In this document: one piece after another, positions 3,386 through 14,537 of the stretch
Position numbering within the stretch: position 1 is the stretch's first letter
How the letters are laid out: each line of letters opens with the position of its first letter
Source of the DNA: Cenarchaeum symbiosum A
GTDB lineage: Archaea; Thermoproteota; Nitrososphaeria; Nitrososphaerales; Nitrosopumilaceae
Length of the DNA stretch: 64,000 bases
Direction: 5' to 3'
Assembly (NCBI GenBank): GCA_000200715.1
Contig: DP000238.1
Coordinates: 1,846,849-1,910,848, forward strand
The notes under the pieces: model-generated
Seen by the model: the letters and a program-made list of their open reading frames with translations, nothing else
What the model was told of the DNA's origin: nothing
The model's database searches: none
Made by a program: the position numbers and the translations under genes

Positions 3386-4834
3386 TTACGCGCCGGGCTT
3401 GCCGCTGTCTTTCCCTTTCTCATCTGACATCTTGACATAGCCTCCCTCGACGCCGCCCGGTTCAGGCTCCCCTTTCTCATCAGGCATCTTGACGTATCCG
3501 CCCTCAACGCGCTCGGGCGGCGCTATCTTTTTTGCAGAGCCGAGGCCCGCCGTGGTGATTACCACAGAAGCCAGTATGATAAAGAAGATTATCTGCGGGT
3601 AGGCCTCTGCGTTGGGCAGCCCAAGTGTTAGCGGAAGTGTAGCCAGCACGGCGGCGGCCAGGCCGCGGGGGATCATCACCTCGGTCACCTTCCTGTCTAT
3701 CTTGGAGAACCTCTTCGTCAGCACGGCCCTCACTATGCCCGCCCTCGAGACATATATCACCACGGTGGCAGCTATGCCGAGCACCGCGTATTCTATCTGG
3801 CCAAAGCTTGCAAGCAGCCCGACAAAGACGAAAAAGAACGCGCGGACAAGAAACGTCAGCTGGCTGTGCGTCGGGTCGTCGGACTCTATCATCCTCACCT
3901 TGAACCTGAATATTCTAGAGAGCCTCTGCTTGTTGCCCAGCATCAGGCCAAATACCAGCGCGGTCAGGGCGCCCGATTCTCCGAATGTATTTGCCATAAA
4001 GAACAGCACGAACAGTATCCCCAGGGTCAGCATGTAGGCATGCTGCGCGTTGCCAAACTTTGTCGTGACGTACATCCAGGGAATGCCCACGCCCAGCCCC
4101 AGGACCAGCCCCACCATGAGGGCCCTGCCTATAGTCTCGCCGAGCAGCTCCGGGCTGAACTCGCCTGACAGTATTGCCTCGAACATGATGAACGCTATGA
4201 TCGTGGCCAGGATATCGGTGATCGCGGATTCAAAGCTGAGCATGGACCGGGCCTCCTCGGAGACGCTTATGTTACGGACCAGGTTGAAGACTATCACGGA
4301 GCTGCTCCCGCCCACTATTGTTCCCAGTACTATGCTGCTCATCCACTCCCACCCTATGATATAGTGGGCCATCACCGCCACTATCGCCACCGATACTATG
4401 AACCCGATTACGGAGAGCGCTACTGCAAAGTGGGCGGTCCTTGCCATGTGCCGGAGATCCAGGTTGAGTCCCCCGTCGAACATTATGATGATGAGCGCTA
4501 TTGCCGCAAAATAGGGGACTATCTGGGCCACCACCTCGGGCTGTATGATGCCAAGGACAGGCCCCAGCACCACGCCGAGCACCATCAAAAATGCCACGTC
4601 TGGCACGCCGGTCCTCTTGAAGAACGCCTCGCCTGCCACGCCGAGAAATATGACCACGCCGGCGGCCAGCAGCAGCACGGGGGCCGCCGCTATGTCACCG
4701 TCGGTTATGGTTATGGCCGAGAACGCCTCCTGCACGTCAAGCAGGGGGCCCGGGAGGGCCCATTCCCCGGCAAGTCCCCTTGACTCAAAGAACTCGGCCA
4801 CCACGCCGAACAGGCTGAGCGCCACGGGGATCAT
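3386..4834 (-). CDS. Cation/proton antiporter, CPA1/NhaP-type
   Basis: 482 residues with about twelve hydrophobic segments. Such proteins exchange Na+ or K+ for H+ across the cytoplasmic membrane. Family features include the early 'GEAFFKRTGVPDVAFLMVLGVVLGP' segment, 'IIMFDGGLNLDLR' (the FxxGL region after TM3) and 'FESAITDILATIIAF' (the acidic transport motif). The last 45 residues are hydrophilic and contain two copies of EGGYVKM(P/S)DEKG, an internal duplication. A TATA-like sequence (CTTAAATAAACC, near 4862) lies about 28 nt upstream of ATG 4834 inside the end of the HNH gene. The gene converges on tfb with only two bases between stops. Confidence 0.9.
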   Translation of the reverse strand: MIPVALSLFGVVAEFFESRGLAGEWALPGPLLDVQEAFSAITITDGDIAAAPVLLLAAGVVIFLGVAGEAFFKRTGVPDVAFLMVLGVVLGPVLGIIQPEVVAQIVPYFAAIALIIIMFDGGLNLDLRHMARTAHFAVALSVIGFIVSVAIVAVMAHYIIGWEWMSSIVLGTIVGGSSSVIVFNLVRNISVSEEARSMLSFESAITDILATIIAFIMFEAILSGEFSPELLGETIGRALMVGLVLGLGVGIPWMYVTTKFGNAQHAYMLTLGILFVLFFMANTFGESGALTALVFGLMLGNKQRLSRIFRFKVRMIESDDPTHSQLTFLVRAFFFVFVGLLASFGQIEYAVLGIAATVVIYVSRAGIVRAVLTKRFSKIDRKVTEVMIPRGLAAAVLATLPLTLGLPNAEAYPQIIFFIILASVVITTAGLGSAKKIAPPERVEGGYVKMPDEKGEPEPGGVEGGYVKMSDEKGKDSGKPGA

Positions 4835-10409: not shown

Positions 10410-11063
10410 GTGCCAAAGTTCGAGAAGACATGGTCACCGTCCCCCAGCCCGGGCATAGGTGAGAAAACAAGCCAGATGTTCAGGCCGCAGGGACCGCTCA
10501 AGCCCCGCGTCCAGACTGCCATCACCAGGCTTAGAAAACAGATAACCAAGCTCGATGGGATGCTAGTCAAGCTCAACGACAGGGACGAGAAGCTCTTTGC
10601 CAGGATAGTGGCCGCCACACAGCAGCATGACGCGCATGCGGGCAAGGTGCTCTCGAACGAGCTGGCAGAGGTAAGAAAGGTCAAGAAGGTGCTCGGTAAC
10701 GCGAGGATCTCGCTTGAGCGCATAGAGATGAGGCTCTCAACGTGCAGCGACCTCGGGGACACCGTGATGGCCATGATGCCGACCATGGGGATCATGAACG
10801 GGATGAAGTCATCGCTTGCAAAGTTCATGCCGGGGGCCGACCAGGAGATCGGCCGTATGTCCGAGATGCTCGACGGCCTCATGGGAGACAGCTTCTCCGG
10901 CGACGGCGCGTTCGGGATGGACGTGCAGGCAAACGAGGAGACCGAGAAGATAATGGCCGAGGCGGCCGCAGTGGCGGAGACCTCGGTGGACACAAAGTTC
11001 CCGCAGATGCCGCAGGATCTCGACCAGAAATCCTCGGAATCATCGTCGGCCCGATTCATGTAG
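10410..11063 (+). CDS. cdvB: ESCRT-III-like (Snf7/CdvB-type) cell-division protein, paralogue 1
   Basis: 217 residues from GTG 10410; a TATA-like TGTTAAGAG is about 28 nt upstream. In Cdv systems these proteins polymerise on the membrane at mid-cell and are remodelled by the CdvC ATPase. The sequence has the basic first helix ('PLKPRVQTAITRLRKQITKLDGMLVKLNDRDEKLF'), a long second helix ('ELAEVRKVKKVLGNARISLERIEMRL') and a methionine-rich middle. An acidic C-terminal region near 'NEETEKIMAEAA' resembles a MIT-interacting segment. It lacks the C-terminal winged helix of full CdvB, so CdvB1/B2-type is likely. A homologue lies at 35474-36118. Confidence 0.88.
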   Translation: MPKFEKTWSPSPSPGIGEKTSQMFRPQGPLKPRVQTAITRLRKQITKLDGMLVKLNDRDEKLFARIVAATQQHDAHAGKVLSNELAEVRKVKKVLGNARISLERIEMRLSTCSDLGDTVMAMMPTMGIMNGMKSSLAKFMPGADQEIGRMSEMLDGLMGDSFSGDGAFGMDVQANEETEKIMAEAAAVAETSVDTKFPQMPQDLDQKSSESSSARFM

Positions 11064-12519: not shown

Positions 12520-13466
12520 ACGGCCTGCTGCTGGCAGCCCTGCTGGCCTGCGCCCTCGGGATGCCGCTTGCTGCAGCAGAAGACGGGCACGGCACCATAC
12601 TCAGGATAGCCGAGAAGGCGCACGGGGAGATTGCGGCACAGCTTGACGGGATGGGGCAGGTCCCGCCCGAGATGCAGGAGCTCTTTGAGCGGGGAACAGT
12701 CGAGCTCGGCTCCCTCAGGGAGGCCGCAGCGGCTGGCGACCCGGAGGCGGCGGAGCGACACTTTCATGCCGCAATGGACGCCTTCCGGCGCATATCATAT
12801 GCCGCGCCTGCACCGGAGGCGGGCGACCCGGAGGCGGATCTTGACGGCTCCCTCGAGAGAGCCGCCAAGTATGTGGACAGGCTCAGGAGAATAGCTGCAG
12901 CCCACGGCGAGGAGATCGACTTTGGGAGACTCGACGGGCTGGTCGAGCTGGCGGGCAGGCAGATCGGCGAGGGCGACCACGAGGCGGCGCGCGGCTCGCT
13001 GGCCGAGATCAACCGGCTGGCCGCGGATGTAAAGTCGAGACTCGACAAGGACTCCCAGTCCCGGTCGTCCGACCGCGCCGTAAAGTTTGCACAAAAGCAC
13101 CTCGACAGGCTTGATGCCATGATAGATGACGCCGAGGAGCTGGGCTATCCCCCAGAGATGATAGGCATGCTCAGGGATGCCCGGGGCGTACTCGAGGGAT
13201 CCTCCGATACCCGGGAGATCATAGAGACGATAAACTGGCTGCTCTCGGTGAGGGACCAGATCGAGGAGACCAGGGCGGAGATGATCTCCGACCGGCTTGA
13301 TGTACTGGAGGAGAGGGCGGGGGCCATCCCCGCGGACCATCCATTGGCAGCAGAGGCACTGGCGGCGGCCGGGGCCGCAAGGTTGGCGCTTGACGCAGGC
13401 GAGCTTGCGGAGGCGCAGTCGGCCCTGCGGGAGCTTGCTACCATGCTGGACTCGCTGGAAGGATGA
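12516..13466 (+). CDS. Exported alpha-helical repeat protein
   Basis: 316 residues. A signal peptide (MNGLLLAALLACALGMPLAAA) is followed by an almost entirely helical, alanine/glutamate/aspartate-rich protein with repeating segments of 35-45 residues ('HGEEIDFGRLDGLVELAGRQIGEGDHEAARGSLAEI', 'LDVLEERAGAIPADHPLAAEAL'). These recall exported helical-bundle proteins of archaea. Start and upstream stop share ATGA at 12516-12519, so it is co-translated with the membrane-bound winged-helix protein. It may be that protein's ligand or partner outside the cell; that is inference from the operon only. Confidence 0.75.
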   Translation: MNGLLLAALLACALGMPLAAAEDGHGTILRIAEKAHGEIAAQLDGMGQVPPEMQELFERGTVELGSLREAAAAGDPEAAERHFHAAMDAFRRISYAAPAPEAGDPEADLDGSLERAAKYVDRLRRIAAAHGEEIDFGRLDGLVELAGRQIGEGDHEAARGSLAEINRLAADVKSRLDKDSQSRSSDRAVKFAQKHLDRLDAMIDDAEELGYPPEMIGMLRDARGVLEGSSDTREIIETINWLLSVRDQIEETRAEMISDRLDVLEERAGAIPADHPLAAEALAAAGAARLALDAGELAEAQSALRELATMLDSLEG

Positions 13467-13580
13467 GTACTTCGGTTGGATAGGCTAATATATCACGACG
13501 ATGTACACATGACATCCGTACCCGAATCCTTTGCACTAACTGTGTTGGTGACACGAGGGTATCGTGTGGGTACGGCCTTA
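13465..13580 (+). repeat. Covarying repeat element, copy 1 (partner at 14424-14537)
   Basis: The two copies align over about 115 bases in the same orientation, with an unchanged core GCACTAACTGTGTTGG. CCGTACCC (13516-13523) is the exact complement of GGGTACGG (13568-13575); in copy 2 both arms changed together (CCATACCC/GGGTATGG). A second hairpin ACACGA-GGGTA-TCGTGT (13551-13567) lies inside. This pattern suggests an RNA-level structure. The element begins at the stop of the upstream gene. Confidence 0.7.
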
Positions 13581-13650
13581 ATTTAACAATATTCTCCTTA
13601 GCTCTTCTACGAGACAGTCTGTTACGCCTATGTCAATCAGACCGGGTATC

Positions 13651-13842
13651 CTAGTACCATTGTTTAGCCCACGCAATGAGGTCCGCAATAAAATATGCGT
13701 CACCAGGATCGGCATTACATAATCCATTTTGTTTTACAAACCCCCCACAGTCCGAATCACACTGAAAGGCGGCATCACAGAGTTCGTGTCGGTGATCAAC
13801 TATAAACTCCTGTATGAGATCACGTGACCTGTTCCATGCCAA
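13651..13842 (-). CDS. Hypothetical small protein in AT-rich island
   Basis: 63 residues from TTG 13842, with a credible composition: 'DLIQEFIVDHRHELCDAAFQCDSDCGGF' and 'DPGDAYFIADLIAWAKQWY'. The frame stays open upstream without a normal start for 15 more codons (NIPGKKINKTYNY...), so the N-terminus is uncertain and the gene may be broken. Four cysteines could bind a metal. Base composition is clearly lower in GC than the neighbours, which suggests acquired DNA. No family recognised. Confidence 0.35.
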   Translation of the reverse strand: MAWNRSRDLIQEFIVDHRHELCDAAFQCDSDCGGFVKQNGLCNADPGDAYFIADLIAWAKQWY

Positions 13843-14208
13843 ATAATTGTATGTCTTGTTGATTTTTTTACCTGGGATATTATTTCATTTTATTCTTGAA
13901 TAATTTTAGACCTTGTTAATCACATCATCTCGATTTATAATGACGGCTTGCGCGATAATATTTTTATTTTTAAATTTCAACCTGCTAGCAAAAACCTTCT
14001 ATTTGTATTAATTTTAATTTCCGTGTCATATCTCTTGTACGTGCTAAGATCCTTCATAATCTGATTGAATACTTCTTGCGTACCAACAACCATTCCCATA
14101 AATCTATAATTGCCTGGCCAACGCCGGGATCTGTGAGTGTTTACTCTACGCATGGATTTGACGGCGCCTGACCAAAAGATCCATACAATATGATCGCACA
14201 CAGCCACC
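13843..14208. other. AT-rich intergenic stretch with possible gene remnant
   Basis: This segment is strikingly richer in A/T than the window. On the minus strand an ORF ending at 13977 reads '...GNYRFMGMVVGTQEVFNQIMKDLSTYKRYDTEIK', which looks protein-like for about 45 residues. It has no clear start and runs antisense into the 14209 gene, so I treat it as a possible remnant rather than a gene. No tRNA, transposase or integrase was seen. Confidence 0.4.
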
Positions 14209-14460
14209 ATGGCCTCCGACAGCAAGACGTTACGGGATGAGTTTGCAAGACTGTTGACCCAGATTGACGGCTTGGAGGACGCCATGAAGGGGCAGGCGGA
14301 GCAGTTCAAGGGGGTACGGGCCGGCCATGCAGAGGAGGCCCGCTGGGCGGTGAAGGAGGCCCAGTTGACGGCGGAGAACCGCGAGCTAAAGGAGATGATA
14401 TTCGGGAGTGTCCTACCCGGCGAGAGTGCTTGGATTACAAAAGGTATTATACCACGATGA
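14209..14460 (+). CDS. Small coiled-coil protein
   Basis: 83 residues starting MASDSKTLRDEFARLLTQID. A TATA-like CATACAATATG (near 14183) is 26 nt upstream of ATG 14209, supporting expression. Residues 8-70 are charged and heptad-like ('LRDEFARLLTQIDGLEDAMKGQ', 'VKEAQLTAENRELKEMIF'), typical of a dimeric coiled coil. The last residues run into the second covarying repeat (14424 onward), so the repeat's insertion probably created the present C-terminus. Unknown function. Confidence 0.6.
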   Translation: MASDSKTLRDEFARLLTQIDGLEDAMKGQAEQFKGVRAGHAEEARWAVKEAQLTAENRELKEMIFGSVLPGESAWITKGIIPR

Positions 14461-14537
14461 TGCACACATAGCATCCATACCCGAATCTTTCGCACTAACT
14501 GTGTTGGGGACGCGATAGGAACGTGGGTATGGCCTTT
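14424..14537 (+). repeat. Covarying repeat element, copy 2
   Basis: Homologous to 13465-13580, same orientation, about 960 bases apart. The outer arms are CCATACCC (14475-14482) and GGGTATGG (14525-14532), a compensatory change relative to copy 1, with the core GCACTAACTGTGTTGG at 14492-14507. The first third overlaps the end of the coiled-coil gene. I see no gene in 14538-14734. Confidence 0.7.

Follow-up and report, generated by a model that had tools for sequence, protein, structure and literature searches.

The two direct repeats found in a 64,000-nucleotide stretch of the Cenarchaeum symbiosum A genome (bases 1846849-1910848, hereafter the window) are two copies of a structured RNA gene of about 60 nt, both on the + strand. 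This RNA gene is apparently undescribed and belongs to ammonia-oxidising archaea, among them C. symbiosum A, a sponge symbiont. The RNA gene and the partnership of the RNA with an RNase H-like protein are well supported, and computation establishes the structure, the strand, the promoter position and the partnership. We favour, with reasonable but limited confidence, the interpretation that the protein is a nuclease under the control of a small RNA dedicated to it, and that the two probably constitute a toxin-antitoxin or defence-type module.

The sequence-only reading had claimed two 115-base copies in direct orientation about 960 bases apart, and these are indeed present: the repeats (13465-13566 and 14424-14525, each ~102-115 nt long) share 77% identity across 102 nt at an offset of 959. 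The core said to be unchanged, GCACTAACTGTGTTGG, is exact in both repeats (chance expectation 0.35 within the window at <=3 mismatches), and the interval between them is as AT-rich as suggested (39-40% G+C vs ~60%). The outer helix reads CCGTACCC/GGGTACGG in copy 1 and CCATACCC/GGGTATGG in copy 2, which amounts to a single compensated change of a G-C pair to A-T; one such pair is weak evidence alone, and the covariation support comes from the alignment of 29 copies described below. Fold z-scores are -2.87 for the first RNA and -2.75 for the second. The gene remnants noticed between the repeats proved to be the usual RNase H-like partner gene of the RNA, here decayed: its start is absent, its reading frame has in-frame stops and frame changes, and its tblastn pieces (genome 1860429-1860965) retain 52-64% identity to the intact copy at 1473766. 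Likewise, the small gene thought to merge with copy 2 corresponds to a + strand ORF that ends in the upstream part of that repeat (Table 1). A third copy of the repeat, at genome 1474340-1474446, begins directly after an intact ORF of 194 aa has reached its stop codon.

Table 1. Positions, within the window, of the two RNA genes and the features associated with them
Feature	Position	Strand	Basis or remark
TATA box of RNA copy 1, CTAATATAT	13485..13493	+	~30 nt upstream of helix; read from sequence
RNA copy 1 (outer helix, asymmetric internal loop, inner helix, apical hairpin)	13516..13575	+	covariance model, 1e-17
Broken ~190-aa RNase H-like gene, tail-to-tail with RNA copy 1	13581..14117	-	tblastn pieces and profile matches
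Small coiled-coil-like ORF, 83 aa	14209..14460	+	3' end inside upstream part of copy 2
TATA box of RNA copy 2, TATTATA	14445..14451	+	sequence and A+T profile
RNA copy 2, compensated outer helix CCAUACCC/GGGUAUGG	14475..14532	+	covariance model, 1.2e-14

Relatives of the 194-aa protein are found elsewhere in the same genome and in three related genomes, and reading past their stop codons revealed a hairpin of similar plan every time. In an alignment of ten RNAs, 11 of the 15 pairs show two-sided change (0 of 500 shuffles), and among 29 distinct copies two-sided change is observed at 14 of the 15 pairs, with 91% of cells paired (again 0 of 500 shuffles). The proposed covariation in the outer helix, and with it selection on the structure, is therefore real. 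The RNA consists of two covarying helices with an asymmetric internal loop between them and an apical hairpin whose helix also covaries. One side of the internal loop is GAAY and the other mostly CUSAUGU; readings of this loop as a hammerhead (CUGAUG...GAA) or a kink-turn were dropped because G alternates with C within the CUSAUGU strand.

The sequence-only reading had also proposed a covariance-model search for further copies, and these were found in this genome and in others of the family. A first model, built from the ten aligned RNAs and run on 250 genomes of the family, recovered eight copies in C. symbiosum A and had matches in 11 of the 250 genomes, while a refined model matched 9 of 400 genomes of the class, all inside the family. 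In two of these genomes, G181 and G133, the matches were excluded because they are probably coding sequence: they are near-identical to each other, have near-identical flanks and lack a TATA box. No Rfam model matched the RNAs at gathering or permissive thresholds (E up to 10 on 20 loci), nor did any match the type-2 and other RNA subtypes at E up to 1. DNA searches of relatives with the repeat itself gave short chance matches only, and nothing was found in viral contigs searched by RNA pattern and by protein.

A second RNA type (GGUGGC...GCCACU) accompanies a second protein type in the same genome and is present in ten copies, six of them clustered at 750-756 kb, which together with the eight type-1 copies brings the RNAs of this genome to at least 18. 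Eight 82-aa coiled-coil-like ORFs are located near type-2 RNAs, with or without an RNase H-like gene. The cluster of repeated units at genome 746000-761000 contains five of these ORFs and six type-2 RNAs, two of which have an intact RNase H-like gene, as well as 300-nt direct repeats ~1.5 kb apart. The promoter and first codons of the small ORF in the window resemble those of the small ORF that precedes the intact RNase H-like gene at 1473766, and this likeness suggests that it may be the type-1 counterpart of the 82-aa ORFs.

The strand of the RNA can be identified from G-U pairs. On the strand opposite the gene we counted 67 G-U pairs and 38 mismatches, against 5 G-U pairs and 100 mismatches on the gene strand, and the ten type-2 RNAs give the same picture (31 G-U and 3 mismatches on the RNA strand vs 3 and 31 on the complement). 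The RNA strand is thus opposite the gene, that is, + in the window, where both RNAs would be transcribed in this direction. Across 30 RNA loci, 87-97% of bases from -30 to -25 relative to the helix are A or T, and in 24 of the 30 the 8-mer richest in A+T lies at -36..-26 (shuffles: mean 4, maximum 11). Solo copies of the RNA have 0.90 A+T at -30..-25 vs 0.47 in the background, and the TATA box occurs at this position in gene-linked and solo copies alike. A TATA box 25-30 bases upstream points to promoter-driven small RNA genes rather than to the ends of a mobile unit; each repeat hence looks like a TATA-driven small RNA gene that would start near the base of its hairpin. Of the explanations first offered for the repeats, that of two duplicated ncRNAs has strong support from the covariation, the G-U strand signal, the promoter and the copies found with the covariance model.

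The partner gene encodes an RNase H-like protein of about 190 aa and points tail-to-tail at the RNA, usually ending a few bases away. We count 23 members or remnants whose 3' flank can be read, and 22 of them have an RNA next to them, tail-to-tail, the exception being in G175, where the RNA is 2.2 kb from the RNase H-like gene. Six covariance-model matches outside the model set (three in G216, two in G227 and one in G013) are also tail-to-tail with such a gene or its remnant, in most cases with a gap of 3-14 bp. Among 250 genomes, seven have both RNA and protein, two the RNA only, four the protein only and 237 neither (p about 1e-9, treating genomes as independent and leaving their relatedness uncorrected). 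No protein was detected in the two RNA-only genomes (G172 and G194), and a different hairpin RNA occupies the same tail-to-tail position in each of the four protein-only genomes and beside one further G216 copy. Roughly half of the RNA copies have no RNase H-like gene next to them. The RNA type varies with the protein type, as specific pairing would predict. The G175 locus contains, besides the RNase H-like gene and a type-1 RNA, a GmrSD restriction gene and a PAPS-reductase-like gene, and looks like a defence island.

Searches of Pfam (ten members, none matching), NCBIfam, PHROGs and PADLOC gave no credible family match for the protein, and a PDB sequence search only one chance match. Its AlphaFold model (mean pLDDT 89.5) finds archaeal RNase HII as the best fold match in the PDB (3p83, E 6e-4), although at a TM-score <0.5 and 14% identity, and a viral DUF3800 protein is second among the viral fold matches (E 1.2e-3, TM 0.42). 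In contrast to archaeal RNase HII, its closest solved fold, the protein is present in multiple copies, has a patchy distribution and is accompanied by an RNA. Conserved aspartates are placed as expected for an RNase H-type site, with D8 in strand 1, D135 and D137 just after strand 4, and D160 in the next helix. In the model, the protein therefore combines the fold of the RNase H superfamily with its acidic residues in strand 1, strand 4 and the following helix, and we predict it to be an RNase H-fold nuclease with presumed catalytic activity.

In the mechanism that we propose, the RNase H-like protein would be an active nuclease that binds the adjacent RNA as its own specific partner, the RNA would hold the nuclease in check in a toxin-antitoxin-like manner, and the pair would belong to a defence-type module. 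This controlled-nuclease interpretation is supported by the way in which subtypes are paired, by a distribution that is multicopy and patchy, by the existence of solo RNAs and, in one genome, by neighbours of defence type. The window itself also supports it: the nuclease copy there is dead while both RNAs have kept their structure and their promoter, consistent with a retained antitoxin or with an RNA that serves partner copies elsewhere in the genome. Against it stand the RNA copies that lack an adjacent RNase H-like gene, the two genomes with the RNA in which no protein was detected, the 2.2-kb separation in G175 and the non-significant sequence homology to DUF3800. Toxicity, inhibition and a defence role are things that we only infer.

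Alternatively, the RNA may be an activating or targeting cofactor, serving as scaffold or guide for an RNase H-like protein that would be an RNA-dependent effector. This relationship seems rather unlikely to us, but it has the RNase H fold of the protein and the joint occurrence of RNA types and protein types in its favour, and DUF3800, an RNase H fold associated with putative ncRNAs, has been reported beside Cas12a2 (PMC10910872). However, the RNA as a whole forms a single covarying hairpin and lacks a hypervariable unpaired guide, and there are more RNAs than protein genes.

Antisense control is less probable again. Tail-to-tail type I toxin-antitoxin pairs such as txpA/RatA act by antisense, and the convergent layout with gaps of a few bases would allow the RNA to overlap the 3' end of the mRNA of the gene and to repress it by base pairing. 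However, the RNA lies mostly just past the stop codon, the G-U pairs show selection on its own fold, and solo copies far from such genes retain both fold and promoter.

We consider it very improbable that the repeats are the ends of a mobile unit or enclose a cassette between recombining repeats, as the sequence-only reading had allowed. The RNAs are multicopy and occur in tandem arrays, and the stretch is absent from related genomes: a genome of the same genus (G001) has a 217-aa Snf7-like gene, a 64-aa ORF and queE in succession without the repeat-bearing stretch, and another relative (G006) has the Snf7-like gene and then queE, again with this stretch and its two repeats missing. In C. symbiosum A it is thus additional sequence. 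But the two relatives miss both repeats rather than one, and neither the expected empty site with one repeat left nor any other single-repeat scar was seen at this site in them. Furthermore, each repeat comprises an RNA gene with compensatory changes and a promoter at a fixed distance, the copies are found solo as well as paired and arrayed, the region has no terminal inverted repeats, and the family searches with the partner protein returned no transposase or integrase. What is absent between the Snf7-like gene and queE in the relatives corresponds to 11.1-14.7 kb of the window; besides the RNA module, this stretch has two larger genes and one for a winged-helix protein. The window encodes a 217-aa protein at 10410-11063 with a weak match to Snf7 (ESCRT-III/CdvB type; E 2.2e-4, below the Pfam cut-off). 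Least probable of all is a 3'-UTR element or terminator on the strand of the RNase H-like gene, which would suit the position right after the stop codon but is contradicted by the excess of mismatches over G-U pairs on that strand, by the TATA box on the other strand and by the solo copies.

Among known systems, TnpB/IscB with omega RNA (OMEGA) likewise have an RNase H-type nuclease gene beside a structured RNA, in multiple copies. In OMEGA systems, however, the RNA is encoded on the nuclease strand and its guide is derived from flanking DNA, whereas the RNA described here is a compact covarying hairpin without a guide portion, on the opposite strand and with its own promoter, and the protein is about half the size or less, with no transposon ends seen.

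The DUF3800-associated RNA motifs, numbered I to XI and reportedly first described by Weinberg in 2017, are more similar. Rfam holds a series of them as sRNA motifs, for which we found no mechanism. In the class to which C. symbiosum belongs, canonical DUF3800 genes are present in 41 of 300 genomes and DUF3800-X RNAs (RF02984) in 13 of 300, the latter located where the DUF3800 gene (PF12686) ends, on the other strand, and overlapping its stop codon in the cases checked. The RNAs studied here share this layout of opposite strand, 3' end and tail-to-tail orientation at the stop codon (as measured on DUF3800-X, and with a partner that is DUF3800-like by fold only), a hairpin with outer helix and internal loops, a partner of reported RNase H-type fold, presence in related archaea and a tendency to be arrayed. 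DUF3800-X RNA occurs in Nitrososphaerota, with three copies inside 2.6 kb in G227:C57. In contrast to DUF3800-X, our RNAs match none of the family models I to XI, and the protein, which is ~190 aa long and in C. symbiosum is frequently accompanied by a small coiled-coil-like ORF, has no Pfam match, none of the ten members reaching the DUF3800 cut-off. Profile comparison with archaeal DUF3800 proteins was not significant (hhalign probability 3%, E 0.015, only over the N-terminal DVSG/DESG stretch). With the RNA covariance model (R1), the only match beside a canonical DUF3800 gene was in G194, where a solo type-1 RNA is located ~400 bp downstream of such a gene on the same strand (L075:3076-3137 and 3536-4354). 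A DUF3800 fragment is present ~740 bp from a solo RNA in G227:C23.

Because the layout is shared, yet Rfam and Pfam give no match and the profile comparison is not significant, we regard the system as a variant of the DUF3800-RNA kind of pair rather than a proven member. The DUF3800-associated RNAs are thus best called its nearest known kind, and it would probably work like a DUF3800-RNA pair. It adds to this kind an independent archaeal set with a minimal partner of ~190 aa and a good structural model, a clear assignment of strand and promoter, several subtypes in which RNA and protein are matched and, in one genome, an amplified set. Whether RNase H-like proteins bind their adjacent RNA, and whether this results in inhibition or activation, becomes directly testable. 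More tentatively, these pairs may represent a class of their own among archaeal nucleases, RNase H-like and RNA-controlled, with several RNA subtypes, each matched to its protein, and a coiled-coil third component. Such a class would serve sponge-associated and related archaea as a toxin-antitoxin or defence module and would have arisen either in parallel to the DUF3800-RNA systems or as a deep branch of them.
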